Position numbers and translations under genes: made by a program. From the NCBI GenBank assembly GCA_001803165.1, contig MHAZ01000003.1, forward strand, positions 62,001 through 126,000: 64,000 nucleotides of DNA, in the 5' to 3' direction. Source of the DNA: Stygiobacter sp. RIFOXYC2_FULL_38_25. Lineage in GTDB: Bacteria > Bacteroidota > Ignavibacteria > Ignavibacteriales > Melioribacteraceae. Below, one piece after another: positions 17,126 through 32,747 of this stretch. Each line of letters opens with the position of its first letter. Position 1 is the stretch's first letter. The notes below the pieces were generated by a model. It saw nothing but the letters and a program-made list of their open reading frames with translations, did no database searches and was not told the DNA's origin.

Positions 17126-17815
17126 TTAAGTAGATTTAAAGCGGTAACCTACGCCCTTAATTGTTTCGATTAGATATGCGTATTTCTCTAATTTCTTGCG
17201 GATATTGAGAAGGTGTACATCAACGGTTCTTTCTACTACAAAAACTTCGTTGCCCCAAACTTCATTCAAAATTTTTTCTCTGTTAAATACTTTGCCGGGA
17301 TTGGATGCAAGCAAAAACAATATTTCAAATTCTTTGCGCGCCAGGTCAACCGGTTTACTCTCAACTTCTACAGAATATTTTTCGCGGCTGATTGAAATTG
17401 GTCCCTCATTAATTTCGCCGGACTTCTCAACTGAGTTGGAAAGCAGTTCCGCATTTCTGAGATTCGCTTTAACTCGCGCCAGAATTTTATTAATTGAAAT
17501 TGGCTTCTGAATAAAATCACTTGCGCCCAAATTCAGCCCGCGAATTTCGTCTGCCTCCGATGTTCTGGCAGTTAAAAAAAGTATCGGCGTGTTTTTGAAT
17601 TTCTCTATGGTTTTAATTCGTTGACACACTTCATAACCGTCCATTTGAGGCATCATAACATCAAGAATTACCAAATCCGGGTTTAGCGAAAGCTTCTCAA
17701 GTGCAACTAATCCATTAGGAGCTGTAATTACTGAGTAACCTTCACGAGTAAGGTTATACTTCAATAACTCAAGAATATCTTTTTCATCATCTACTACTAA
17801 TATCTTGGAACTCAC
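17126..17815 (-). CDS. phoB: PhoB-type response regulator (OmpR family)
   Basis: 229 aa. Receiver domain with acidic pocket 'VVDDEKD', phospho-acceptor Asp in 'DLVILDVMMPQMDG', conserved 'LTAR' Thr and 'IQKPIS' Lys, then an OmpR/PhoB winged helix ('FNREKILNEVWG', 'VHLLNIRKKLEKYAYLIETI KGVGYRF' in two blocks). PhoB-class regulators bind 11-bp direct repeats, matching the arrays at 25.1, 28.7, 32.4 and 32.7 kb. It is the last gene of an operon with phoU and pstS, 3 nt after phoU. No phoR kinase gene is in the window. Confidence 0.88.
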   Translation of the reverse strand: MSSKILVVDDEKDILELLKYNLTREGYSVITAPNGLVALEKLSLNPDLVILDVMMPQMDGYEVCQRIKTIEKFKNTPILFLTARTSEADEIRGLNLGASDFIQKPISINKILARVKANLRNAELLSNSVEKSGEINEGPISISREKYSVEVESKPVDLARKEFEILFLLASNPGKVFNREKILNEVWGNEVFVVERTVDVHLLNIRKKLEKYAYLIETIKGVGYRFKST

Positions 17816-17818
17816 CGG

Positions 17819-18484
17819 TTAATTCTCCAGAACCTTTCTATGTGTAACAATTTTTGCTTCCGTTAAAAAAAGAAGATGCTCTGCAATGTTTGTTGCATGA
17901 TCTGCCAGCCTTTCAATTTGTCGTGCAAGAATTAGCATGTGTGCAAGCGGCTCAATCAACTGCGGGTCAGATTTCATTTTACCTGTGATGAATTCAAATG
18001 AAAATTTATTTAAGTCGTCAACTTTCTTATCATTCTTAATCACCTGATGCGCTAGTTCCCCATTGGAATGTATAAACGAATCAATAGCGCAGCTAACCAT
18101 TGTATGCGCCTCTTTCGCCATGCCGGCAATCCCAGATTCATCAATTAAATTTCTAAACTGAGTAATCTTTGATGCTCTGTTAGAAATGCTAACAGAAATA
18201 TCGCCGCATCGCTCAAGCTGATTATTAATCATCAGTGTCGAAATCACTGATCGTAAGTCGAATGCAATAGGCTGAAAGAGAGCTAATATATTTTCACATT
18301 GAATCTGCAGCAATTCATCATAAGCATCAACTTCATCATCTTTGGCTTTAATATCTTTAATGGAGGAATCATCCCCGGTTTCAATCAAATTTATTGCTTT
18401 GCCAACTTGATCATCCACAATAGATGCCATCCTGACTAAATTAGTTTTTAATTCTTCCATATCTCTTTGAAATTGATGCGGCAT
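17819..18484 (-). CDS. phoU: Phosphate signalling protein PhoU
   Basis: 221 aa, two tandem three-helix PhoU domains. 'HQFQRDMEELKTNLVRMASIV', 'DDEVDAYDELLQIQCENILALF' and 'LERCGDISVSISNRA', with the metal-binding E/D-rich helix patterns repeated in 'ARQIERLADHATNIAEHLLFL'. PhoU dampens Pho signalling and phosphate transport when phosphate is plentiful. It sits between pstS and phoB with gaps of 13 and 3 nt. Confidence 0.96.
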   Translation of the reverse strand: MPHQFQRDMEELKTNLVRMASIVDDQVGKAINLIETGDDSSIKDIKAKDDEVDAYDELLQIQCENILALFQPIAFDLRSVISTLMINNQLERCGDISVSISNRASKITQFRNLIDESGIAGMAKEAHTMVSCAIDSFIHSNGELAHQVIKNDKKVDDLNKFSFEFITGKMKSDPQLIEPLAHMLILARQIERLADHATNIAEHLLFLTEAKIVTHRKVLEN

Positions 18485-18497
18485 CTTGCAGTTCCTT

Positions 18498-19328
18498 TTA
18501 TCTCTTCACCGGGAAATATCCAACCTCTGCAACTATTCTCTGACCTTCTTTACTTAATGCCCAATCAACGAACTTCTTTATGTTTCCTTCCGGCTTCTTT
18601 CTTGTGTACATATATAGAAAACGTGAGATAGGATACTCACCGGATTCAATATTTTTTTTGTTTGGTAAGAAGGCTTTCGAATCGGGATCTTTTTTTACGG
18701 CAATGTCTTTTATTCCCTTGGCATATGCTGCGCCGCCAAAACCGATAGCATTTTTATCTTTGCTTACAGCGTTAACAACAGCAGCTGTACCGGGCAAACT
18801 CTGTACATCGGAACTAAAATCTTTGTTTTCCAAAACATGTTCTTTGAAATAAACGTAAGTACCGGAGCTGTTCTCCCGACCGTACATAATTATTTTAGCA
18901 TCTGAGCCGCCAACTTCTTTCCAGTTTTTTATTTCACCGGTGTAGATGCCTTTGATTTGTACAAGTGTGAGATCATTTACTTTTTTGTTAGCCTTATTTA
19001 CGTACACACTTAAGCCATCTATTGCAACCTTTATTTCTACTCCGGTAGAACCATACTTATCTTTCAATTTTTCAATTTCACTTTGCTTCATCGGTCTTGA
19101 AGCATTACATATATCTGTTGAACCGTTCAACAAAGCTGCAATTCCTGTTCCTGAGCCGCCGCCTGTAACTTGAACAGCTATACCGGGATTCGATTTCATA
19201 AAAACCTCAGCCCAGCGTTGAGATAGAATTACCAAGGTATCCGAACCTTTTACTGTTATTGTTTCTTCCGGAAGGGAGAAACCAAAGAGTGTTATAAACG
19301 TTATTGCCGCTAATATTATTTTTTTCAT
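18498..19328 (-). CDS. pstS: Phosphate ABC transporter substrate-binding protein PstS
   Basis: 276 aa. Signal peptide (about 1-20), then the PBP-like phosphate-binding fold: 'ETITVKGSDTLVILSQRWAE', 'VQVTGGGSGTGIAALLNGSTDI' and 'SRPMKQSEI', with the Ser/Thr/Gly loops that hold phosphate; 'YGRENSSGTYVYFKEHVL' follows. Upstream in the operon are the TonB receptor and the T9SS protein. The permease/ATPase genes pstC, pstA and pstB are not in the window. Confidence 0.92.
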   Translation of the reverse strand: MKKIILAAITFITLFGFSLPEETITVKGSDTLVILSQRWAEVFMKSNPGIAVQVTGGGSGTGIAALLNGSTDICNASRPMKQSEIEKLKDKYGSTGVEIKVAIDGLSVYVNKANKKVNDLTLVQIKGIYTGEIKNWKEVGGSDAKIIMYGRENSSGTYVYFKEHVLENKDFSSDVQSLPGTAAVVNAVSKDKNAIGFGGAAYAKGIKDIAVKKDPDSKAFLPNKKNIESGEYPISRFLYMYTRKKPEGNIKKFVDWALSKEGQRIVAEVGYFPVKR

Positions 19329-19354
19329 TTTGCACCTTAATCAGTTTAAGCAAA

Positions 19355-19376
19355 GGGCGCCCCACGAAAGACGCCC
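19355..19376 (-). terminator. Possible weak attenuator hairpin between the T9SS gene and pstS
   Basis: GGGCG/CGCCC five-pair GC stem around a 12-nt loop in the 70-nt gap before pstS. No long T-run follows on the minus strand, so it may reduce rather than stop readthrough, or shape mRNA stability. Confidence 0.3.
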
Positions 19377-19398
19377 AGTGACTAGAGTGAGAGAGAAA

Positions 19399-22242
19399 TT
19401 ATTTTACCAACACCATTTTCTTAGTTATAACATTGTTATTTGTTTCTAAGCGGTAGAAATACATACCACTTGAAAAACTTCCGGCATTCCATGATACTGA
19501 ATAACTGCCGGCTTGCTTAAATCCATTTACTAATGAACCAACTTCTTGACCAAGTACATTAAAGACACTCAATTTTACAATACCATCCTTCGGCATTGAA
19601 AACTTGATTGTTGTACTTGGATTAAATGGATTCGGATAATTCTGGCTTAATTCATACTTAGTTGGAAGAGCGTGATTCGTTTCTTCTTCAATATCCGTAG
19701 CCGTAAATACTAAGCTACTCCATCCTTCTGCCCAATTCTGTGTACCAAAAGCTCCAACAAAGTTTGCCGTTGTATCAAAGAAGCCATCGTTAGGCGGTGT
19801 TGCCGCACCAGTGAATACCGGTGAACCAGCTAACGGCATTGGATTTGGCTTAGCTACATTAAATGCATCTGATAACTTTACATCTGCATTATTCGTAAAT
19901 GTTCTTCCGCCTAATCCGGTAAACCAAGTTGGCATTTCTGTTTGGAATGTTGCGTCTGTTGATTTGAATGTTGCTGTTGTTGAACCGGAAATTATGCTAT
20001 TCTTTATGAAAGCTGCCGTTCCGCCTTTCATGTCCGCAACAGTATTTGTCCCATCAACCAACAATCCTTGTGGCCAGCCCATTATTAATGCATTGTGAAT
20101 CTTATTCTGTGATGATCTTCTTAAATGCATTCCGTTTCTGAACAATGAATTGAACGTTGTGCTTGTTGTAGCTGCCGGTCCAATTAAAGTTACATTGTAC
20201 CATGTTGGAGATGTTCTTGGTGAATTTGTTGATCCGCTTCCATCGTTATCACTCTCAAATCCATTTGATTGTGATGCATCTGCGATTGCAGGGTCACGTA
20301 ATGATAATAGAAATTGCAGCTTTCCGCTGTATCCAAAGTCTGTATCAAAGTCATCATCCCAGCCGCGGTAAGCAATTAAATACTTTGCGTTTACTGTTCC
20401 GCCAAAGAATTCAAAAGAATCGTCGCCGGAATAACTAACTTGTATGTATTCTAATTTTGTTTTGTTACCTACACCGCCAAGCGTTAAACCGTTTATCTCG
20501 TTGTTCAATGAATATGCTATGCCTGGATATTCAATACGGACATATTTCATAACACCGCTGTTATCTTCTACATCGGTTCCGCCATATTCATCGCCCGGAC
20601 CTTCAATTAATGCTTTACCGCCGGCAACGTTTATAGGAGCTTTACCAAGAAGGATAATTCCTCCCCAGTCACCGTAGTTTGGTGTTTTAGTTGAACCGGC
20701 TTTTGTGAATTCACTTGTAAATACAATCGGTTCATCTTTAGTACCTTCAGCAAAGATCAACCCGCCAGGTTTAACAACTAAAGAACCTTGCGATGCATTC
20801 TCTCCATAAATTTTTACACCAGGTTCAATTGTTAAAGACGCACCCGATTGAACTCGCACGATTCCTTTTAATGTATAATCTTTTCCTTTTGCAAGGGTAA
20901 CATGTGTAGTAATATCGCCGGCAATAATTTCGGAAGGTTTAGCTGGAACTTGGATTGATAATGAGCTCCAACCAGCCGTCCAATCTCTGTAACCAAATGC
21001 ACCAATATAATTTGCAGTTGCATCGAAGAAACCATCTGCCGGTGGATTAGCTGCACCGGTGAAAACCGGCGAACCGGTTGTTGGCATTGGATTTGGGTTA
21101 GCAAGGTTATATGCATCAGCAAGTTTTACATCTGCATTAGCAGTAAATGTTTTACCGCCTAAACCTGTAAACCAAGTTGGCATATCAGTTTGGAATGCCG
21201 CGTCTGTTGATTTAAATGTTACTGTTGTTGAACCGGCAATAATGCTGTTCTTAACAAATGCTGCTGTTCCGGTTTTCATATCCGCTACTGTGTTAGTTCC
21301 ATCTATCAATAAACCTTCCGGCCAGCCAAGTATTAATGCGTTAGCAATTTTGTTTTGTGATGATCTTCGTAGATGCATTCCTCTTTTGTATAAGCTGTTA
21401 ATTGTTGATGTAGTTGTTGCAGCCGGACCAATTAATGTAACGTTGTACCAGGTTGGTGATGTTCTGGGTGAATTTGTAGAACCGCTTCCGTCGTTATCGC
21501 TTTCAAATCCATTTGATTGTGAAGCATCTGCAATTGCCGGATCGCGAACACCTAAAAGAAATTGAAGTTTACCGGAATAGCCAAAGTCTGTATCAAAATC
21601 ATCATCCCAACCGCGGTAAGCAATTAAGTATTTTGCATTAACAGTTCCGCCAAAAAACTCGAATGAATCATCTCCTGAGTAGCTTACTTGAATGTATTCT
21701 AACTTTGTCTTGCTTCCAACGCCGCCAAGTGTTAAACCGTTTATTTCATTGTTTAATGAATATGCAATGCCGGGATATTCTATTCGTACATATTTAAGAA
21801 CGCCGCTGTTATCATCTGCAACAGTTCCGCCATATTCGTCTCCCGGACCTTCAATTAATGCTTTACCGCCGGCAACGTTTATCGGCGCGTTTCCTAAGAT
21901 GATTATGCCGCCCCAGTCACCATAGTTAGGAGTTTTTGTAGCACCCGGTTTTTTGAACTCACTTGTAAATACAATTGGCTTATCTGCGGTGCCTTCTGCC
22001 ATAATTTTACCGCCAGGCTTTACAATCAAAGATCCCTGCGAGGTGTTTTCTCCGTATATAATTGTTCCGGGCTGAATGGTTAGCGTAGCACCGGGCATTA
22101 CTCTTACTATTCCTTTGAGTAAATATGTTTTATCGGATGTAAGTGTTTGATTCGTAGTAATATTTCCGCTAAGCGCCTCTTGTGCTGAAATATTTGAAAC
22201 TAAAATAGCAGCTAAAACAACTGTCCTTAAAAAGAACTTCAT
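19399..22242 (-). CDS. Secreted T9SS protein with two tandem ~420-residue repeats
   Basis: 947 aa. Signal peptide (1-20), two homologous units (about 22-430 and 435-850) and a C-terminal T9SS type A sorting domain (about 865-947: 'LSQNYPNPFNPSTTIKFSMP' through 'GMYFYRLETNNNVITKKMVLVK'). Each unit opens with 'YLLKGIVRVMPGATLTIQPG' or the like and 'GDWGGIIILGNAPINVAGG', resembling a right-handed beta-helix. The two halves also contain conserved acidic runs ('YRGWDDDFDTDFGYSG'). Exported to the surface or medium by T9SS. 26 nt downstream of a TonB receptor and upstream of pstS, so a surface partner in phosphate-compound capture is likely (inference). Confidence 0.85.
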   Translation of the reverse strand: MKFFLRTVVLAAILVSNISAQEALSGNITTNQTLTSDKTYLLKGIVRVMPGATLTIQPGTIIYGENTSQGSLIVKPGGKIMAEGTADKPIVFTSEFKKPGATKTPNYGDWGGIIILGNAPINVAGGKALIEGPGDEYGGTVADDNSGVLKYVRIEYPGIAYSLNNEINGLTLGGVGSKTKLEYIQVSYSGDDSFEFFGGTVNAKYLIAYRGWDDDFDTDFGYSGKLQFLLGVRDPAIADASQSNGFESDNDGSGSTNSPRTSPTWYNVTLIGPAATTTSTINSLYKRGMHLRRSSQNKIANALILGWPEGLLIDGTNTVADMKTGTAAFVKNSIIAGSTTVTFKSTDAAFQTDMPTWFTGLGGKTFTANADVKLADAYNLANPNPMPTTGSPVFTGAANPPADGFFDATANYIGAFGYRDWTAGWSSLSIQVPAKPSEIIAGDITTHVTLAKGKDYTLKGIVRVQSGASLTIEPGVKIYGENASQGSLVVKPGGLIFAEGTKDEPIVFTSEFTKAGSTKTPNYGDWGGIILLGKAPINVAGGKALIEGPGDEYGGTDVEDNSGVMKYVRIEYPGIAYSLNNEINGLTLGGVGNKTKLEYIQVSYSGDDSFEFFGGTVNAKYLIAYRGWDDDFDTDFGYSGKLQFLLSLRDPAIADASQSNGFESDNDGSGSTNSPRTSPTWYNVTLIGPAATTSTTFNSLFRNGMHLRRSSQNKIHNALIMGWPQGLLVDGTNTVADMKGGTAAFIKNSIISGSTTATFKSTDATFQTEMPTWFTGLGGRTFTNNADVKLSDAFNVAKPNPMPLAGSPVFTGAATPPNDGFFDTTANFVGAFGTQNWAEGWSSLVFTATDIEEETNHALPTKYELSQNYPNPFNPSTTIKFSMPKDGIVKLSVFNVLGQEVGSLVNGFKQAGSYSVSWNAGSFSSGMYFYRLETNNNVITKKMVLVK

Positions 22243-22268
22243 ACCTTCTCCTTTTTGGTTATTAAATC

Positions 22269-25064
22269 TTAGTTTAGTTTATACGATAAGCTGACGGATA
22301 TAGTTTGACCTTTCTTAGATAACTCAGAAACTTTGTCGCCATCGGGAGTTCTTTGTACAAATTTGAAATCTTGCGCCAGTAAATCTCTTACGGCAACTTT
22401 TAAGCTTAACGCCTCAAATATTTTTTTAGAGAATGAAAGATCAACCTGGTCTCTTGGTTTTTCGATTACATCGCCCAACCCGCCAAAACCAACTTTGGAA
22501 ATCTTTTCTCCAACCTTGTTATAAATAACTGAAGCTGTAAAGCCGTTATTAAAACCTTCATAGTAAAGACCGGCATTTAATATGAAATCTGCCTGACCTT
22601 GCAGAGGTCGCTCAGATTGTTGAAAGCCCGCATCTTCTAATTCTATTTTGGAATCTATCCAAGAAAGGTTGCCTATGAATGAAAAATCGGAAAGCGAGTT
22701 AGATATAAAATCCAAAGACTTTCTTGCTTCAAATTCAACACCTAAGTTTTTGGCTGTCTTAGCATTTTCGTAAGACCTTAAAGGCTCGAATGATGATGAC
22801 GACAATAAAACTTGCTCAATTGGGTCTGCAAATTTTTTATAGTAAGCACTTACGGCTAACAACTCTTTTGGTGCCGGATAATATTCTAACCTTGCATCGT
22901 AATTTGTGATTAAACTTCTTTTGAGATTCGTATTGCCAATCACCAATTCGTTTTGAACAAAATCGAAATATGTGAAAGGTGCTATTTCTCTAAACTCCGG
23001 TCGTGCAATTGTTCTGCTATAAGCCAATCTGAAATTAATAGACTCTGTAGCTTCCCATGTTAGGTTGAGGCTTGGGAATAAATCTTTATAGTCAGTGTGT
23101 ACTTCTACACTTTCTCCGGTTCTGGTTTGGCTAAAAAGATTTTGCTTAGAATTCTCATATCTAATTCCGGTAATAACTTTAATATTACTGATTGGCTGGA
23201 AGTCCATCATTGCATAACCGGCAGAAATTGTTTGGTTCGAGTTGTAACTATCGGTCGGCTGAGTGATTTCAATTACTTCAATAAATGTTGGATTGATATT
23301 AGAGGCAGCGAATATTTGATCAACCGACTGCTGAAGTATTTGGTCTTCTTCAGAAAAATTTCCACCCGGAATATTTCTGAAACCAAATATTCTTGCAGTA
23401 AACTCCCTCTCCTTTTTATCGAAAGTGTATCCCAACTTAAAAGTCGGCATCGAGGCAGCCTCAAATGGCTTCACTTTGAAATTTAGATTAGCGCCGTATG
23501 ATTGATCACCGAGATTTCCAAAATAGCGCGTACCTATTGATTGATCTAACAGAAAGCGAAAGGGTTGATCCGTATCCTCAATACCCCTTGCGTAGATATA
23601 CCTTCTCGCATCCGGTTCGTTTCTTTCGGACTTAGCGTAATTCAGATTCCAATCAACTTTTAAGCTTCTTAGAAAATCGAAATGATGTTCGCCGATTAAT
23701 TGATGAGATTGAAGCGAGCGAGAAACGAAACGAAGTGCTGTAACTTTTCTTGTTTGTTGAGTGTAATTATATAAACCTTCATAAACTGTAGTCTCGTCAT
23801 CACTGGAATTGTTGTAAACATTCTTCAAACTGATTTTGTGATCTTTGCCTTGCTTGTAGCTAATATTAACTAAGGCTCCCCAGTTTACATTCATTGTGTT
23901 GTTACTTCCGGAATATTGAAAACGCGGACCTTCAAAAGTGTAAGAAGCTTGTTCTAAATTTTTGTTCTCTGCTGAGTTGGAATAAGTTAAGGAACCAATG
24001 TAGCCGAGCACTCCTTCATCAAATCCTATTTGGTTTCCTACATTCAATCTGAAGCTTGAATTGAGAGGCGCATTTAGAGATTTGGTCTGCCAGTTATTTT
24101 TAAAGGATAATCCGATATTTTGCAGCTGCTCACTTGTATAATTTGTTTTATTAACTTTCTCACCGTTGATTAATGAAGGTAAGTCTCTAGTTCCATCATC
24201 AACCCCAAGATAATCTCTCGTGCCGCCGTTGTATGAATTGAAACTCTTAAATGTTGTGTTTGTGTTTACCGAACTGGAAACGCTTAAATCGAAAATGAAT
24301 TTTGATGGAAATTCAATTGTGTTTATTTCAACCAAGCCGCCGGTGAAATCTGCCGGTTTATCCGGAATAAAAGTTTTTGATGTTAAAACATTTTCCATCA
24401 AACTTGCCGGAAAGATATCATAAGCGAAAGTTCTTTTTTCCGGGTCTGTGCTTGGTAAGTTTGAACCATTCAGCATAGTATTGTTATATCTATCACCAAC
24501 TCCACGGATATACGCGTACTTGCCTTCGGAGATTGTTACTCCGGTCATTCGCTTCAGAACATCAGCACCATCCGAGCTATTATTCTTTGAAATCAATTCT
24601 GCGCTCTGCCCATCAACTATATTTAGTGAGTTTCTCTGGATATTAAGCACGCTAGCTTCTGTTGCCTTTAGTGCTTCAGCGGAAACAACTACTTCATTTA
24701 ATTCAGTTGTTGCCGGTTCTAGTTGAATGTTTACCACTGTATTCTGACCGGCAGTAACGACTACATTGCTAACAACTAATGTCTGATATGAGATATACGA
24801 AACGCGTAATTGATACTTACCGGTTACTAATGATTTCAGAGCGAATGTTCCATCTAAATCTGTTGAAGCTCCGGTTGTTGTTCCAACAATTAATACGCTG
24901 GCGCCAATTAAATCTTCGTTAGTTGATTTGTCTGTTACCTTTCCGCTAATTGTTCCTTTTGCTTGAGCAAATCCAATTGAACTTGCTGAAAGGAATAGAA
25001 TTACTAATAAGGTAAATAATAATTTGTAAGAGCTATTCGTGTAGTTCTTAATTTGGTAATACAT
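22269..25064 (-). CDS. TonB-dependent outer-membrane receptor (phosphate operon)
   Basis: 931 aa. N-terminal signal anchor (to about residue 34, ending FAQA), a carboxypeptidase-regulatory-like beta domain ('GTISGKVTDKSTNEDLIGASV'), a plug domain ('SSDGADVLKRMTGVTISEGKYAYIRGVGDRYN') and a 22-strand-type barrel to the C-terminal 'ISVSLSYKLN'. Imports a ligand too large or scarce for porins, using TonB energy. First gene of the operon with the T9SS protein, pstS, phoU and phoB, under a candidate Pho box at 25100-25155. The ligand is not known; a phosphorus-containing compound is the natural guess. Confidence 0.92.
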   Translation of the reverse strand: MYYQIKNYTNSSYKLLFTLLVILFLSASSIGFAQAKGTISGKVTDKSTNEDLIGASVLIVGTTTGASTDLDGTFALKSLVTGKYQLRVSYISYQTLVVSNVVVTAGQNTVVNIQLEPATTELNEVVVSAEALKATEASVLNIQRNSLNIVDGQSAELISKNNSSDGADVLKRMTGVTISEGKYAYIRGVGDRYNNTMLNGSNLPSTDPEKRTFAYDIFPASLMENVLTSKTFIPDKPADFTGGLVEINTIEFPSKFIFDLSVSSSVNTNTTFKSFNSYNGGTRDYLGVDDGTRDLPSLINGEKVNKTNYTSEQLQNIGLSFKNNWQTKSLNAPLNSSFRLNVGNQIGFDEGVLGYIGSLTYSNSAENKNLEQASYTFEGPRFQYSGSNNTMNVNWGALVNISYKQGKDHKISLKNVYNNSSDDETTVYEGLYNYTQQTRKVTALRFVSRSLQSHQLIGEHHFDFLRSLKVDWNLNYAKSERNEPDARRYIYARGIEDTDQPFRFLLDQSIGTRYFGNLGDQSYGANLNFKVKPFEAASMPTFKLGYTFDKKEREFTARIFGFRNIPGGNFSEEDQILQQSVDQIFAASNINPTFIEVIEITQPTDSYNSNQTISAGYAMMDFQPISNIKVITGIRYENSKQNLFSQTRTGESVEVHTDYKDLFPSLNLTWEATESINFRLAYSRTIARPEFREIAPFTYFDFVQNELVIGNTNLKRSLITNYDARLEYYPAPKELLAVSAYYKKFADPIEQVLLSSSSFEPLRSYENAKTAKNLGVEFEARKSLDFISNSLSDFSFIGNLSWIDSKIELEDAGFQQSERPLQGQADFILNAGLYYEGFNNGFTASVIYNKVGEKISKVGFGGLGDVIEKPRDQVDLSFSKKIFEALSLKVAVRDLLAQDFKFVQRTPDGDKVSELSKKGQTISVSLSYKLN

Positions 25065-25099
25065 TTAATTTCTCTCTCTTTTTGTTTTATTTACTGGTG

Positions 25100-25155
25100 C
25101 GAATTTAGATTTCAAGTATTAACTGTGAGTTAAAGGACGGTTAAGGAATTGTTAA
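25100..25155 (-). promoter_or_regulatory. Candidate Pho box and promoter of the TonB receptor-pstS-phoB operon
   Basis: Four TTAA cores start at 25119, 25130, 25141 and 25152, exactly 11 bp apart. Read on the minus strand they are TTAACA, TTAACC, TTAACT, TTAATA. The -7-like box TAAATTCG (one mismatch to TAnnTTTG) begins at 25107, 12 nt from the last repeat, and the ATG follows at 25064. Direct 11-bp repeats are the hallmark of PhoB/PhoP sites; B. subtilis PhoP prefers TTAACA-like units. Confidence 0.75.
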
Positions 25156-25247: not shown

Positions 25248-26891
25248 GTGAAAATTAAAGAATACATCATTGCGTTTTCAGTTATAGCAGCGAGCCCATT
25301 TTTGTATGGGCAAAACAATCAAACAAAAGAACTGTTTAGCAAAGAATTGTTTAAGAACCACCTTTCCTATCTTGGAAGTGATAGTTTGGAAGGAAGAGCT
25401 CCGGGGACACATGGTGGAAATTTAGCTGCAAAGTATTTAGCCAAAGAGTTCGAAAAATTAAAGCTGACTCCGACTGGAAAAGAGCAAAAGTATTATCAAT
25501 ACATTCCTTTTCACGGAAGTAAGCCACTTCACAATTCAAAGCTAAGTATCAAGTTTGATTCTGAACTAATAGGATTCCGCTTAAAAGAAGATTTCCTGAT
25601 GTACCAAACAAACAATCCCGTTTTTATTCCAACTGAAACGCAAATGGTTTTTGCTGGCTATGGTATAACCGCCAATGAATTTGATTATAACGATTACCAC
25701 GATTTAGATGTTGAGGGAAAAATTGTTGTGTTTCTTGATGGTGAACCGCATTCAATTGATCCGAATTACTTTAATGGAGAAACGCCAACTATATATAGCG
25801 CTCCTGAAGTGAAACAACGGATCGCACTTGCACATGGAGCTAGGGGAAGTATTTTAATTCCAAATAGAGAAACAGGCGGATTCAATTGGGAAAAAGCAAT
25901 ACAAGATTTTGCTTTTGAAAATCTAACTTTGGCTTCAACACCTTCCACAAGTTTCGATATTATGATCAATCCGGAAATTGCAGATTTACTGTTTACCGAC
26001 AGCGGGTTTACTATTGAAGATATTTACACGATGAAAAAAGAAAACAACTTGAAGGTTTTTCCTCTAAATGGAGTCCTAACTTTCCAAGGAAGTTTTAAGC
26101 AAAGAGATTTCGTTAGTCCAAATATTGTTGGAATTATTGAAGGAGATGATTCTACATATAACGACAGCTATGTTTTGATTACCGCGCATTACGATCATCT
26201 TGGGATTGGTCCTGCTGTTAATGGTGATTCAATCTATAATGGTGTTTTTGATAACGCTGCCGGTGTTTCGGCATTGCTTGAAATCGCGAGAGTGTTTTCA
26301 AATCCGGAATTTTATAATCGCCGCTCCATCATATTTGTAATTCTTACCGCGGAAGAATTTGGTTTGCTGGGTTCAGAGTTCTACATCAATAATCCCATTA
26401 GACCACTACATAAAACAGTAGCTAATATTAATATTGATGGAATTGCCTCCTTTGATAACTTCAAAAGTTTTGTTGCCGTTGGAAAAGAATATTCAACACT
26501 AATTAACTTTATGAGAAATGCCGCGGCGGCAAGAAACTTAAAAGAAGCTGAAATTCCCGAAGAGTTTAATTCGGTAAATACATTCACAAAGTCGGATCAG
26601 TTTACTTTTGCTAAAGCCGGAATTCCCTCGTTATTGATAACAGAGGGAACCGATTATATGAGCATAACGCGAGAAGAAGGCATTAAGAAAATGATAGATT
26701 TTGCAAGCAATGTATATCATTCGCCGGCGGATGATCTTAGCTTGCCATTAAATCTTGATGCAGCTTTACAGCATGTTGATTTACTATTTGGGGTTATAGA
26801 TGAACTTGTCAATTCCGAGACCGAACCGGAATGGAATGCATCATCTCCGTTTAGATTTGCAAGGATACTATCTCGAAAGGCTATGAAGTGA
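25248..26891 (+). CDS. M28 family metallopeptidase with PA-like insertion
   Basis: 547 aa from a GTG start. Signal peptide (about 1-22). 'YLGSDSLEGRAPGTHGGNLAAKYL' is the N-terminal M28 signature; a PA-like insertion spans about 120-260. Zinc ligands: His/Asp in 'TAHYDHLGIG', Asp in 'DNAAGVSALLE', Glu pair in 'TAEEFGLLGSEFY', Asp in 'INIDGIASF', and His in 'VYHSPADDL'. A periplasmic/secreted aminopeptidase. Divergent from the TonB receptor; a possible -7 box CATTTTTG lies at 25190-25197. Its stop overlaps the start of the second PstS gene (GTGA). Confidence 0.88.
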   Translation: MKIKEYIIAFSVIAASPFLYGQNNQTKELFSKELFKNHLSYLGSDSLEGRAPGTHGGNLAAKYLAKEFEKLKLTPTGKEQKYYQYIPFHGSKPLHNSKLSIKFDSELIGFRLKEDFLMYQTNNPVFIPTETQMVFAGYGITANEFDYNDYHDLDVEGKIVVFLDGEPHSIDPNYFNGETPTIYSAPEVKQRIALAHGARGSILIPNRETGGFNWEKAIQDFAFENLTLASTPSTSFDIMINPEIADLLFTDSGFTIEDIYTMKKENNLKVFPLNGVLTFQGSFKQRDFVSPNIVGIIEGDDSTYNDSYVLITAHYDHLGIGPAVNGDSIYNGVFDNAAGVSALLEIARVFSNPEFYNRRSIIFVILTAEEFGLLGSEFYINNPIRPLHKTVANINIDGIASFDNFKSFVAVGKEYSTLINFMRNAAAARNLKEAEIPEEFNSVNTFTKSDQFTFAKAGIPSLLITEGTDYMSITREEGIKKMIDFASNVYHSPADDLSLPLNLDAALQHVDLLFGVIDELVNSETEPEWNASSPFRFARILSRKAMK

Positions 26892-27718
26892 AAATATTCT
26901 TATCTGCCTCAATTTTAATTTTAGCTGTTAGCGGATGCAGCATCCTGGGTCCGAGTAATACGGTAATAAAAATAAAGGGCTCTGAGACAATGGTAAATTT
27001 AACAAGGCGATTGACTAAAGAATATTCCAAGGAGAATCCGAATACCAGTTTTATTGTTGAAGGCGGCGGAACAGGAGCGGGCATTATTTCTCTTGTTGCT
27101 AATGAAATTTTGATCTCAACCGCTTCAAGAAATTTAGAACCCGAAGAAGTTAAACTTGTTGCAGAGAGATATGGAACTGTTGGCGTTTCAACTTCAATAG
27201 CTAAAGACGCACTTTGTATTTATGTGAACAAAGCTAACCCAATTACAAATTTAACGACAGAACAATTAGTAAGAATATTCTCCGGGAAAATTACAAATTG
27301 GAAAATGCTTGGCTTTGCCGACAGAACAATAAATGTTTACTTAAGAAATAATTCTTCGGGTACATTACAGTTATTCAAGAAGCTCGTATTAAAGGAGAGT
27401 CAATTTGCAAACTCAGCAAAATCATATGATACGATTGCCGAACTGCAAAGCGCGGTAGAGAAGAACGAATATTCTATTACGTTTTCCGGTTTAGTTAAAG
27501 ATACAAAGTGTAAAATAATTTCTATCGAAAATATCGAACCTACTAACATTAATGTTGTAAGCGGTTATTATCCTCTTTCCCGCTATTTACATTTCTATAC
27601 ACTGAAACAGCCCGAAGGTGAAATAAAGATTTTTATTGACTGGGTATTAAGCGCAAAAGGACAAAAGATTATTGATGAGGAAGGATTTTATTCTTTATTC
27701 AACTACTCGCTGGAGTAA
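26888..27718 (+). CDS. PstS-like phosphate-binding lipoprotein (second copy)
   Basis: 276 aa, GTG start overlapping the peptidase stop by 4 nt, so translationally coupled. Lipobox 'LAVSGC' (Cys18), then a PBP-like fold parallel to the PstS at 18.5 kb: 'TVIKIKGSETMVNLTRRLTKEYS', 'GGGTGAGIISLVANEI', 'YLRNNSSGTLQLFKKLVL'. Anchored in a membrane, unlike the first PstS. The sequence is clearly different from that copy, so it is an old paralogue rather than a recent duplicate. No PstC/A/B follows. Confidence 0.82.
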   Translation: MKIFLSASILILAVSGCSILGPSNTVIKIKGSETMVNLTRRLTKEYSKENPNTSFIVEGGGTGAGIISLVANEILISTASRNLEPEEVKLVAERYGTVGVSTSIAKDALCIYVNKANPITNLTTEQLVRIFSGKITNWKMLGFADRTINVYLRNNSSGTLQLFKKLVLKESQFANSAKSYDTIAELQSAVEKNEYSITFSGLVKDTKCKIISIENIEPTNINVVSGYYPLSRYLHFYTLKQPEGEIKIFIDWVLSAKGQKIIDEEGFYSLFNYSLE

Positions 27719-27722
27719 GTGA

Positions 27723-28634
27723 TTATACTGCAATTGAAGTGATGCTTCCCTCGTTACCTACTAATACTTCTTCTTTCAGATCCAGCTTATGAAGATTTAC
27801 ACTTATATCGAAAGGAAATGCGTCAATCATAAAATAGGAAGCTTGTTTTTCTTCTGTGCATGCACCGGCATTTACAAAACGTATTTTCTTCCTGAAGTAT
27901 TCACGCATTTCATGACTGTGCCCATGCAAAACCAGTTTAACATTGTTCTCGGAAAAAAGGTTAAGAAGTTTTTTCTTGCCGCGTAGCTTCATCGTGTAGC
28001 TCTCGATTTTATTCCAAAGAGTATTCTCAGAACTGGTTGAGATTTCCGATTTCTGATAGAAATGATGATGAATCAATACGATTTTAACTTTGTCATTAAA
28101 CTTTGGTCTTGTTAGATAACTTCTTATAATATTGCGGTTGGCTTTGCTAATTCTTCCATTCGAAGCAAATGGATTTTTAAATCTTGAATATTCATCTATC
28201 GAGTTCAATCCTACCAGCACTATATTTTTCAATTCCTTTATGAATGGGAAAAACACTTCTTCGTGAGGACGAATAGTGTTTTCGAATAATTCATGAAAGT
28301 GTCCGGCAAATCTCATAACTTTTTCCTTGTAGCTAACATTAAGGCACTTAAAAGGGAAGTTAAGAACATCCTGAGCAGTTTGTGGTCCGCCAAAAATATC
28401 ATGATTGCCAATCACAATAGATGATTTTTCGCTATGCAGAAGGCTGAAACTTTGAAGTAAATCTCTAAACTGAATTAATTCTTTTTCTTCAGCATTGTCG
28501 GAAATATCTCCGGTGAAAACGAAGTGTTGAGCCCCATTTTCTAACGCGTGTTCTATTAATCCTTTAATCTTAGCAATGTTGCTCTTCTTAAAATTCGAGC
28601 ACAAGTGTAAATCAGAAAGATGAGCAATTCTCAT
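27723..28634 (-). CDS. Calcineurin-like metallophosphoesterase
   Basis: 303 aa, no signal peptide, cytoplasmic. All five metallophosphoesterase motifs are present: 'AHLSDLHL', 'FTGDISDN', 'GNHDIFGG', 'LIHHHF' and 'LHGHSHEMRE'. Binds two metal ions and cleaves phosphomono- or diesters; the substrate could be a nucleotide, lipid head group or cyclic nucleotide. Its own candidate Pho promoter (28658-28714) suggests a role in phosphate scavenging or lipid turnover. Confidence 0.88.
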   Translation of the reverse strand: MRIAHLSDLHLCSNFKKSNIAKIKGLIEHALENGAQHFVFTGDISDNAEEKELIQFRDLLQSFSLLHSEKSSIVIGNHDIFGGPQTAQDVLNFPFKCLNVSYKEKVMRFAGHFHELFENTIRPHEEVFFPFIKELKNIVLVGLNSIDEYSRFKNPFASNGRISKANRNIIRSYLTRPKFNDKVKIVLIHHHFYQKSEISTSSENTLWNKIESYTMKLRGKKKLLNLFSENNVKLVLHGHSHEMREYFRKKIRFVNAGACTEEKQASYFMIDAFPFDISVNLHKLDLKEEVLVGNEGSITSIAV

Positions 28635-28657: not shown

Positions 28658-28713
28658 CAAAAATATATTACCAATATTATCAGATTATTAAGGCAGCGTT
28701 AACAAACTATTAA
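28658..28713 (-). promoter_or_regulatory. Candidate Pho box and promoter of the metallophosphoesterase gene
   Basis: TTAA cores at 28688, 28699 and 28710 plus a degenerate TTAT at 28677, all 11 bp apart. The -7 box TATTTTTG, a perfect match to TAnnTTTG, runs from 28665 down to 28658, exactly 12 nt from the last repeat. The gene starts at 28634. Confidence 0.72.
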
Positions 28714-28729
28714 CTATTCAGAACCAGTT

Positions 28730-28785
28730 TTAACAATTACTTAACTGTAGGTTAATTATGAGGTAACAATAGAACACGATATTTG
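28730..28785 (+). promoter_or_regulatory. Candidate Pho box and promoter of the NeuB-like gene
   Basis: TTAACA at 28730, TTAACT at 28741, TTAATT at 28752 and GTAACA at 28763, each 11 bp apart. The -7-like box GATATTTG (one mismatch) starts at 28778, 12 nt after the last core ends, and AAGGAG plus ATG follow at 28796-28809. Back-to-back with the box for the metallophosphoesterase. Confidence 0.75.
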
Positions 28786-28808: not shown

Positions 28809-29705
28809 ATGAGTACAAAAGTAAAAATTGGTTCGCGTTTAATTGGCGAAGACGAGCCGGTATATATTATTGCAGAAATTGGAATAAACCATAATGGTTC
28901 AATGGCGTTGGCAAAGAAGTTAATTGACGGAGCTGCTTTTGCCGGATGCGATGCTGTAAAATTCCAGAAGAGAACTCCGGAATTATGTGTTCCTCAGGAT
29001 CAATGGAATATTGAACGGGATACTCCCTGGGGAAGAATTACATATCTGGAATACAAACATAAAATTGAATTTGGCTTCTCCGAGTATGAGCAAATAGATT
29101 TTTACTGCAAAGAAAAGGGAATTGACTGGTTTGTTTCCGCATGGGATGAAGAGTCTGTTGAGTTTATCGAGCAGTTCAATCCGATAGCCTACAAAATTGC
29201 TTCTGCAACTCTTACCGATGAAGATTTACTGTATAGAATTCGTCAAACCCAAAAACCGGTGATACTCTCAACCGGAATGTCCACAATGGAAGAAATTGAT
29301 GAAGCAGTTAACAACCTTGATAAAGATAACTTACTTCTCGCTCAATCAACTTCTACATATCCTTGTAAAGAAAGTGAGTTGAACTTAAGAATGATAGAAA
29401 CCTACAAGCAGTTGTACCCGAATATTCCAATTGGTTACAGCGGTCACGAAACGGGATTAGCACCAACATTAGCAGCAGTAGCTTTAGGTGCAACTTTTGT
29501 AGAAAGACATATCACTTTAGACCGGGCAATGTGGGGAACGGATCAGGCGGCTTCAGTTGAAGTTAATGGAATGTTTCAGTTAGTAAGAAATATCAGAGAC
29601 ATTGAAAAATCTTTAGGTGACGGCAAAAAAAAAGTTTACTCAGGCGAGTTAAAAAATCTTACTAAGATGAGAAAGTATAAAAACTCTCAAAAGTTAGTTG
29701 GTTAG
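28809..29705 (+). CDS. NeuB-family (N-acetylneuraminate synthase-like) protein without SAF domain
   Basis: 298 aa. TIM-barrel NeuB domain: 'YIIAEIGINHNGSMALAKKL', 'CDAVKFQKRTP', 'YKIASATLTDEDLL', 'LSTGMSTMEEI', 'GYSGHETGLAPTLAAVALG' and 'ERHITLDRAMWGTDQAAS' carry the PEP- and metal-binding residues. NeuB enzymes condense PEP with an N-acyl hexosamine to make nonulosonic acids. Typical members have about 345 residues with a C-terminal antifreeze-like SAF domain, which is absent here. Neighbouring sialic-acid genes (neuA, neuC) are missing, so the product is unclear. Strong RBS and a Pho-type promoter. Confidence 0.85.
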   Translation: MSTKVKIGSRLIGEDEPVYIIAEIGINHNGSMALAKKLIDGAAFAGCDAVKFQKRTPELCVPQDQWNIERDTPWGRITYLEYKHKIEFGFSEYEQIDFYCKEKGIDWFVSAWDEESVEFIEQFNPIAYKIASATLTDEDLLYRIRQTQKPVILSTGMSTMEEIDEAVNNLDKDNLLLAQSTSTYPCKESELNLRMIETYKQLYPNIPIGYSGHETGLAPTLAAVALGATFVERHITLDRAMWGTDQAASVEVNGMFQLVRNIRDIEKSLGDGKKKVYSGELKNLTKMRKYKNSQKLVG

Positions 29706-29974: not shown

Positions 29975-31726
29975 TTAAGCAGTTGCTTTGAGGTTTGCAT
30001 AGTTGTTGGACAACATAAACTTCTGTTTCTTTTCTTCTTTGATGAGATTAACATCAACCAATATGAGACCGTCAATACAGTTCTCGAAATCCGGGTCTGT
30101 TCCAAAATCTAAAAAGTTTACCCCTCCGGTCTCGCATAATTCAGAATAATGTTTATAGAGAACCGGCACCGTAAACCCGAATGGCTTAAGTATCTTTTTT
30201 AATATTTTGTAATCATCCTTTGTTGTTTCTCCGGTAAAAATATTTGCAAGCTCTGCAGAGCTATTTTCTGATATGATAAACTTTCTCTTGGATTCAATAA
30301 GCTGCTCTTTACTTCCATACCATTTGTTAAAGTAATAGACAATCATTTCTTTGGCGGCAGCCGGATAGTTATTGCTTATGCTAACACCACCGAATAAATA
30401 TTTAACGGAATTATCATGCTGAAGATAAGCGCCTATACCCTGCCAAAGGTAATTAAGAGCGTTTGTGTTCCAATATTTACTTTGAACAAAACTTCTTCCA
30501 AGTTCTATCGAATCGCTTAAATAGTTTTCAGTAAAAGTTGGACTATAATTAAACAGAGTTGAAGTATAAAAGCCTTCGCTCCCAACTTTTTCCATTATTT
30601 GATTTCCTGAGCCTATTCTATAAGAACCAATAATTTCCAACTCTGCTTCATCCCATAAGATTAAGTGTGAATAGTGCGTATCGAACTTATCAAGATCGTA
30701 GTTTTTCCCGGTTCCCTCACCTACTTTTCTAAACGTTAATTCACGCAAACGAGCTATTTCATTTACGGTGTGGGGAGATTCATTTCGTGTAGTTAAGAAA
30801 ATCCGGATGTTGTTCTTGGTTATACCGAGCAACTGAGAGTTAAGAAGCTCCATTTTGATAAGCTTTCTATCTACCGGGTGAATTACGTTTTTCTCAGTCG
30901 TATAAATTCCTTTTTTGTTTTTGCCGATCAGATATACGTGCTTTTTCAGCAACTTTGTCTGATACTCATTATCAATTAGAGCTGAAGAAAAAACCTTTGC
31001 AGGAATAATATCCCCAATTTTTAATTTTATTACATGATTTGTCTTGTTGAATAGCTCGTGAGAAAGCAGCAGCATCGAGACTTTTTTGTTCAGTAAAGAA
31101 ACAAAATAAAACAGAAACGAGTTGCGCGCTTCAATGTAAACCGGAAGTACAGGAGAGCTGAATCTATTTGCAAAATGTACCGCCCCTTTATGCCATTTAG
31201 AATCAACAATGGAAAGTCCCTTTAAGCGGGAAACTTCTGCCGCCGGAAATAGAATTACTGCAAATTCATTTTGCAGCGCTTGCCGAATTTCGTTAATTGA
31301 ATTTTTCTGTGCTGATTTACTATCGAGTTTAATCGGTATAAGTAAATTGCGTATTGGTTCTATGTTGTATAGAATTTCATTCGCAACAATCTTCACATCG
31401 CGTCTTACTTCTAAAACCGCCTTGAGAAGCGAGAGAGCGTCTAAACTGCCAATCGGGTGGTTGGCTACACAAATTACTCTGCCATGTGATGGGATTTTAT
31501 AATGATCTCTGCTGGAAATGAGGTAAGAAAAGTTCAGCTCATCAAACAACTGATTGATAAACTGCTTGCCATCCAGATGGGAGTAATTTTTGATAAATCT
31601 TTCAACTCTACTCAGGTAAATTAATTTCGAAACTATTTTAGCAAGAACCTTTTCAATAGCAATTGAAAGGCGTGAGCTGCCAAGTTTTAGCTTTAACGAA
31701 ATAACGTTAGTGAGTTCAGTTTTCAT
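29975..31726 (-). CDS. OlsF-like bifunctional acyltransferase (ornithine/amino-lipid synthesis)
   Basis: 583 aa, two domains. N-terminal glycerolipid acyltransferase (about 90-270) with the hemolysin-type 'ANHPIGSLDALSLL' block and 'VILFPAAEVSRLKG'. C-terminal GNAT-like acyl-ACP N-acyltransferase of the OlsB/Acetyltransf_5 type (about 320-480: 'REL TFRKVGEGTGKNYDLDKFD' in two blocks, 'HLILWDEAELEIIGSYRIG', 'ELGRSFVQSKYW'). This order matches OlsF, which makes phosphorus-free ornithine lipids in two acylation steps. Last gene of an operon under a candidate Pho box; its start overlaps the 118-aa gene stop (ATGA). The amino-acid substrate is inferred, not proven. Confidence 0.82.
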   Translation of the reverse strand: MKTELTNVISLKLKLGSSRLSIAIEKVLAKIVSKLIYLSRVERFIKNYSHLDGKQFINQLFDELNFSYLISSRDHYKIPSHGRVICVANHPIGSLDALSLLKAVLEVRRDVKIVANEILYNIEPIRNLLIPIKLDSKSAQKNSINEIRQALQNEFAVILFPAAEVSRLKGLSIVDSKWHKGAVHFANRFSSPVLPVYIEARNSFLFYFVSLLNKKVSMLLLSHELFNKTNHVIKLKIGDIIPAKVFSSALIDNEYQTKLLKKHVYLIGKNKKGIYTTEKNVIHPVDRKLIKMELLNSQLLGITKNNIRIFLTTRNESPHTVNEIARLRELTFRKVGEGTGKNYDLDKFDTHYSHLILWDEAELEIIGSYRIGSGNQIMEKVGSEGFYTSTLFNYSPTFTENYLSDSIELGRSFVQSKYWNTNALNYLWQGIGAYLQHDNSVKYLFGGVSISNNYPAAAKEMIVYYFNKWYGSKEQLIESKRKFIISENSSAELANIFTGETTKDDYKILKKILKPFGFTVPVLYKHYSELCETGGVNFLDFGTDPDFENCIDGLILVDVNLIKEEKKQKFMLSNNYANLKATA

Positions 31727-32691: not shown

Positions 32692-32747
32692 GAAACTTAA
32701 CAGTTCGATTTTACTATACGGTTAAGTGAGCGTTAAAAATCCATTAA
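32692..32747 (-). promoter_or_regulatory. Candidate Pho box and promoter of the 75-residue protein
   Basis: TTAA cores at 32722, 32733 and 32744 plus a degenerate TTAC at 32711, 11 bp apart (minus-strand readings TTAACC, TTAACG, TTAATG). The -7-like box TAAGTTTC (one mismatch) starts at 32699, again 12 nt from the last repeat; start codon at 32668. Confidence 0.7.

Follow-up and report, generated by a model that had tools for sequence, protein, structure and literature searches.

A TonB-dependent receptor gene placed at the head of an operon with pstS, phoU and a response regulator gene raises the question of what phosphate control has to do with transport across the outer membrane. The locus belongs to Stygiobacter sp. 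RIFOXYC2_FULL_38_25, whose genome comprises 4.4 Mb in 22 contigs and whose placement in the Ignavibacteria fits the many records of that group among the relatives found by the searches, and the window referred to below is the whole stretch of 64,000 nucleotides that was analyzed.

Layout of the operon and its promoter

The first-pass annotation had described five minus-strand genes for a receptor, a surface-exported protein, PstS, PhoU and PhoB, and open reading frame coordinates and profile searches confirmed all five within 17126-25064 and in that order. The features of the locus are:

25118-25155, minus strand: Pho box, four tandem TTAAC/T units with an 11-bp period, TTAACaattccTTAACcgtcctTTAACtcacagTTAAT
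25100-25107, minus strand: candidate -7 element TAAATTCG, 15 nt downstream of where the last box begins
22269-25064, minus strand: TonB-dependent receptor, 931 aa, with PF13715, PF07715 and PF00593 and a CarboxypepD_reg-like N-terminal domain
19399-22242, minus strand: T9SS-exported, ElpS/FII-like beta-helix protein, 947 aa, with a Por_Secre_tail, a type A sorting domain, at the C-terminus
19355-19376, minus strand: terminator-like hairpin in the gap between the T9SS gene and pstS, z -2.33
18498-19328, minus strand: PstS, second copy, above the TIGR02136 cut-off
17819-18484, minus strand: PhoU, extra copy, above the TIGR02135 cut-off
17126-17815, minus strand: OmpR-type response regulator, PhoB-derived, with an altered recognition helix
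25248-26891, plus strand: M28 peptidase, divergent from the receptor, adjoining the receptor promoter in several relatives
26888-27718, plus strand: PstS-like lipoprotein, its gene sharing 4 bp with that of the M28 peptidase

From receptor to regulator, the genes are separated by about 26, 70, 13 and 3 bp, as calculated from their coordinates. The earlier description of the genes as tightly spaced needs a correction, as the 70-bp gap before pstS contains a GC-rich hairpin followed by a short run of T. The genes are presumably co-transcribed; given the hairpin, they may have two expression levels, the last three being expressed less. No phosphatase gene is found within the five-gene operon. The M28 peptidase and PstS-like lipoprotein genes (25248-27718) also accompany the receptor pair at loci L071, L078, L102 and L095.

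A Pho-type promoter had been proposed for the operon, and several lines of evidence now substantiate it. The box upstream of the receptor gene was sought in the window as a pattern of three units with at most two mismatches, which gave 14 matches against 0.55 expected, a count reached by none of 100 shuffles. When receptor genes of the family were compared with control genes, a triple box (at least 13 of 15 letters) was found within 200 bp upstream of 32 of the 38 receptor genes, as opposed to 14 of 348 control upstreams, and nine of these 14 lie within the same clusters, ahead of pstS, pstC, M28, phosphoesterase or NeuB genes. Moreover, the spacing of TTAA[CT] in the family upstreams peaks at 11, 22, 33 and 44 bp (83, 60, 37 and 14 pairs, respectively), and in 19 of 34 promoters, that of the window operon among them, the last unit begins 15 nt before a TAnnTT[TCA]G element. 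This element is similar to the -7 element of Bacteroidota, and its 15-nt distance places the boxes where a PhoB-type activator would replace the -35 element; the operon thus has 11-bp direct repeats in the -35 place, as a Pho promoter should. The shuffles, the clustering of exact sites and the periodicity together rule out a chance match. Outside the family, Pho-type boxes are present in some genomes of the class and weak or absent in others. By analogy, the core TTTAACA of the motif bound by Riemerella PhoP in DAP-seq (PMC9603813) appears to agree with the operon box. Overall, Pho control of the operon is well supported at the sequence level, and a PhoB-type protein would be expected to bind at its promoter.

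The same element also stands at other phosphate genes of the genome. The exact pattern TTAA-N7-TTAAC-N6-TTAA occurs at five promoters only, namely those of the receptor operon, a phosphoesterase/NeuB pair, OlsF, a Porin_O_P gene and the pstSCAB-phoU operon of contig 6 (L034). As the genome-wide count equals that of a reversed-pattern control once one mismatch is allowed, weight was given to exact sites only; single-mismatch matches on contigs 7 and 21 (L037 and L038) were inspected and are likely due to chance. At the phosphoesterase and contig-6 pstS promoters, the -7 element at the 15-nt offset is unclear by eye.

Several neighboring features were observed in addition. Two Pho-type box sets (28677-28767) lie between the phosphoesterase gene (27723-28634, minus strand) and a NeuB-family synthase gene (28809-29705, plus strand), which suggests phosphate control of a nonulosonic-acid-type gene. 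An OlsF ornithine-lipid synthase (29975-31726) scores above its curated cut-off, and boxes at 32710-32747 lie upstream of its gene cluster, with small open reading frames in between; membrane-lipid replacement at low phosphate is a likely interpretation of this arrangement. A second pstSCAB of the source genome (L035), with two PstB genes, is without a box of the TTAAC type. In 15 family genomes, an acyltransferase gene (PF01553) lies directly upstream of the receptor gene (e.g., L073:13127-13942 and L088:6061-6867), whereas a similar gene in the source genome (L034:11600-12412) is found upstream of the Porin_O_P-pstSCAB cluster instead.

The receptor and its beta-helix partner

The predicted structure of the receptor contains a complete plug and barrel. 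A fold search returned generic TonB receptors, and the comparison with solved structures, of which the closest are siderophore, heme and metal transporters, gave no hint of a ligand. Assignment to the SusCD/PusCD type was ruled out, as profile searches found no SusD domain in the operon and the receptor scores 68 bits on TIGR04056 (SusC), far under the cut-off of 368.

In the protein encoded at 19399-22242, profile searches recognized a single domain, the T9SS sorting tail (49 bits on TIGR04183, cut-off 23). With this type A C-terminal domain, and with a gene for the SprA translocon in the genome, the protein has the hallmarks of a T9SS substrate, and it is probably located at the cell surface, where it may contact the receptor. 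Its signal peptide is without a lipobox, as opposed to that of a lipoprotein; combined with the sorting domain, this marks it as an anchor variant rather than a strict ElpS. The protein carries an internal duplication with halves 83% identical, whereas other members of the beta-helix family have one domain copy; open frames in the family reach about 2300 aa. The second half is predicted to form a beta-helix followed by the sorting domain (pLDDT 91), and the helix is probably right-handed, judging from the fold and from weak matches that include tailspikes and pectate lyases, in addition to T9SS sorting domains. A sequence search of solved structures gave no match. Among 35 diverse beta-helix members, the conserved charged positions are 12 acidic and two basic, and invariant acidic residues recur approximately one turn apart (D607, D608 and E611; D629, D630 and D633; E663 and D665). 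This pattern suggests a metal-binding or hydrolase-like site, and the prevalence of acidic residues argues against a simple pocket for the phosphate anion.

Receptor and beta-helix genes are adjacent, and in the same order, in 29 of the 29 class genomes that have both on one contig, as judged by eye from coordinates; in two more (G053 and G299) the locus is cut by contig ends. Among 40 family loci, the beta-helix gene follows the receptor in nearly all cases in which the contig continues, and pst/pho genes lie at most 9 kb away in 18 of the 40, many loci being truncated by contig ends. Gene order therefore shows the pair together, rather than always elsewhere among unrelated neighbors, the outcome that the first-pass annotation had named as fatal to its proposal. 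Likewise, its view that receptor and surface partner are tied to phosphorus starvation is supported by this linkage and by the boxes upstream of the receptor genes. Contigs of relatives (L072, L045, L082 and L062 among them) often end within the beta-helix gene or immediately ahead of it, its repeats being the probable cause.

Within the genus, L071 has receptor, beta-helix protein, PstS, PhoU and regulator in an order identical to that of the source operon, and L075 has receptor, beta-helix protein, box, PstS, regulator, box, PstC, PstA, PstB and PhoU. At L071:13926-14700, PhoU is split across two overlapping frames, which represents a frameshift or an assembly error. The unit conserved throughout the family consists of box, receptor and beta-helix protein, the PstS-PhoU-regulator module being present in few genomes. 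Further afield, the receptor and a homologous partner were also found in Flavobacterium, Chryseobacterium, Allomuricauda, Chitinophaga, Dyadobacter, Spirosoma and Prevotella, and in records of Latescibacterota, Acidobacteria and Verrucomicrobia. In the loci of Flavobacteriia, the partner is lipoprotein-like and phoB and phoR are mostly divergent beside the receptor gene; pstC and pstA follow the pair in Latescibacterota (L158) and in an Opitutaceae record (L168).

These arrangements resemble the PUSIV/PhoBR cluster of F. johnsoniae, composed of Fjoh_0543 (PhoR), Fjoh_0544 (PhoB), Fjoh_0545 (a TonB-dependent transporter) and Fjoh_0546 (lipoprotein FII) (PMC8115612). There, as here, a CarboxypepD_reg TonB receptor is followed by a surface beta-helix protein with a link to PhoB, and low-phosphate induction is documented for F. 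johnsoniae, with the receptor at 8.0 and lipoprotein FII at 9.9 in the fold-change column, which we read as log2 (PMC8115612). The PUSIV protein has a lipid anchor instead of a T9SS sorting domain, Flavobacterium homologues have a single beta-helix domain instead of a duplicated one, and phoBR adjoins the receptor gene, unlike the downstream pstS, phoU and regulator genes of the source operon. Homology to Fjoh_0546 was deduced through other Flavobacterium genomes, the link resting on synteny and on PMC8115612. In F. fontis, the receptor is 30% identical to that of the window over its whole length and the beta-helix domain 40% identical, and Flavobacterium homologues beside phoBR have the homologous beta-helix protein directly behind a TonB receptor, the arrangement that defines ElpS/FI-FII-FIII proteins. 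On sequence evidence, the source pair shares ancestry with Flavobacterium pairs that have the PUSIV layout.

The FI-FIII proteins of F. johnsoniae are stated to be related to Caulobacter ElpS (PMC8115612), a surface lipoprotein that phosphate-starved cells produce and whose gene adjoins that of the receptor CC0171 (PMC2996285). The C. crescentus pair of ElpS (CC0170) and CC0171, likened here by description, shares with ours a surface protein and a neighboring TonB receptor, and starvation-dependent production is a property of the Caulobacter protein. ElpS is a lipoprotein with T2SS-dependent release and adjoining T2SS genes, unlike the source pair; it is still produced when CC0171 is deleted, and cc0171 is expressed alike in rich and poor media (PMC2996285). 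Moreover, the Caulobacter PhoB regulon includes TonB receptors (PMC11208175). Two further systems combine an outer-membrane receptor with a surface partner. F. johnsoniae PusCD (SusCD-like), which is induced at low phosphate, has a SusD-like partner in place of the beta-helix protein. XusA-XusB of Bacteroides thetaiotaomicron (PDB 9gbc) is a TonB receptor with a surface-exposed lipoprotein, XusB, that serves siderophore uptake, and no sequence relation to the source partner was found. The source pair departs from the known cases in that its surface protein has a T9SS anchor and an internal duplication, and in that the pair is fused to a module of pstS, phoU and regulator genes.

The PstS-PhoU-regulator module

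The operon PstS is 65% identical to the PstS of the contig-6 pstSCAB operon, and the operon PhoU 59% identical to the PhoU encoded there. The last gene, annotated at first pass as PhoB, does encode a PhoB-like OmpR-type regulator, but its scores lie below both PhoB equivalog cut-offs (235.6 against 270 and 207.4 against 296.2 bits). The contig also carries, some 11 kb ahead of the window, a phoBR-type pair without a box (L235); its regulator, which is accompanied by a PhoR-like kinase, has a slightly higher PhoB score, likewise below the cut-off. The operon regulator is 63% identical to this protein and clusters with its counterparts at L071 and L075. We therefore rejected the possibility that it is the PhoB of the genome, and regard it as paralogous to the regulator encoded in the phoBR-type pair. 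Its recognition helix has lost conserved basic residues, reading HLLNIRKK in the source, HLLNVRKK in L071 and HLLKIRKK in L075, as compared to HVRKIREK or similar in PhoB-type proteins. In E. coli PhoB, DNA is read by the recognition helix, and the specificity of the operon regulator may thus differ.

It had also been argued that, since the operon lacks pstCAB and phoR, its primary target may be the receptor pair. This argument fails, as pstCAB and phoR are found elsewhere in the genome (L034, L035 and L235), and as PstCAB-PhoU follow the pair in L075.

Proposed function and rival explanations

Taken together, we read the locus as an operon that responds to phosphate starvation and serves to scavenge phosphorus at the outer membrane, with a probability of roughly 70%. 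At low phosphate, a PhoB-type regulator would bind the four TTAAC units just upstream of the -7 element, and activation would lead to abundant TonB receptor and type IX-exported, surface-anchored beta-helix protein, partial read-through of the hairpin yielding less of the second PstS, PhoU and the PhoB-derived regulator. The beta-helix protein would bind or process a phosphorus-bearing ligand at the surface and the receptor would import it using TonB energy, after which phosphate freed in the periplasm would pass to the PstS copies and on to the PstCAB encoded elsewhere. The active capture suggested at first pass is plausible, and import of a phosphorus compound by the pair is likely.

The active part may instead be the surface protein, which would be secreted to liberate extracellular phosphate as a hydrolase or phosphatase helper, with the receptor serving its assembly, anchoring or signaling and importing no phosphorus. 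The spacing of the invariant acidic residues by about one beta-helix turn and the weak fold likeness to lyases and tailspikes would suit such a role, as would the Caulobacter case, in which ElpS is released and its overproduction is accompanied by more extracellular alkaline phosphatase activity (PMC2996285). We nevertheless consider this unlikely: the receptor always adjoins, with plug and barrel complete in the model, T9SS or lipid anchoring holds the partner at the cell, and the profile search found no known phosphatase domain in the surface protein.

Still less probable is import of a cargo other than phosphorus, such as a metal chelate or a glycan, needed more under phosphate starvation. 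The nature of the closest solved receptor folds speaks for it, and the conserved acidic residues could hold a divalent metal, but the related F. johnsoniae genes that respond to low phosphate are tightly repressed under iron or nitrogen limitation (PMC8115612), and the linkage to pst recurs across several lineages. That the operon mainly rewires regulation, its duplicated PstS-PhoU-regulator module tuning the response from a strong Pho promoter with the outer pair as an add-on, would agree with all three proteins being second copies and with the conserved change of the recognition helix in three genomes, but is very doubtful given that the family-conserved unit is box, receptor and beta-helix protein and that few genomes have the module.

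Within phosphorus scavenging, a more specific proposal is offered tentatively, as a possibility with the odds against it: the receptor and its type IX-anchored beta-helix partner may together form a TonB-energized importer that takes up phosphate or a phosphate polymer bridged by cations. This importer would be the outer-membrane counterpart of Pst, with a PstS of its own as the link to the inner-membrane transporter and with tuning by a PhoB copy of changed DNA specificity.

The locus represents a pair conserved across Ignavibacteria, Bacteroidota and beyond and under phosphate control. Four TTAAC units followed, at 15 nt, by TAnnTTTG provide a usable definition of the Pho box for this group, which allows regulon mapping in uncultured genomes. 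If TonB-energized import of phosphorus is true, phosphate uptake would include an active outer-membrane step beside the passive porins.
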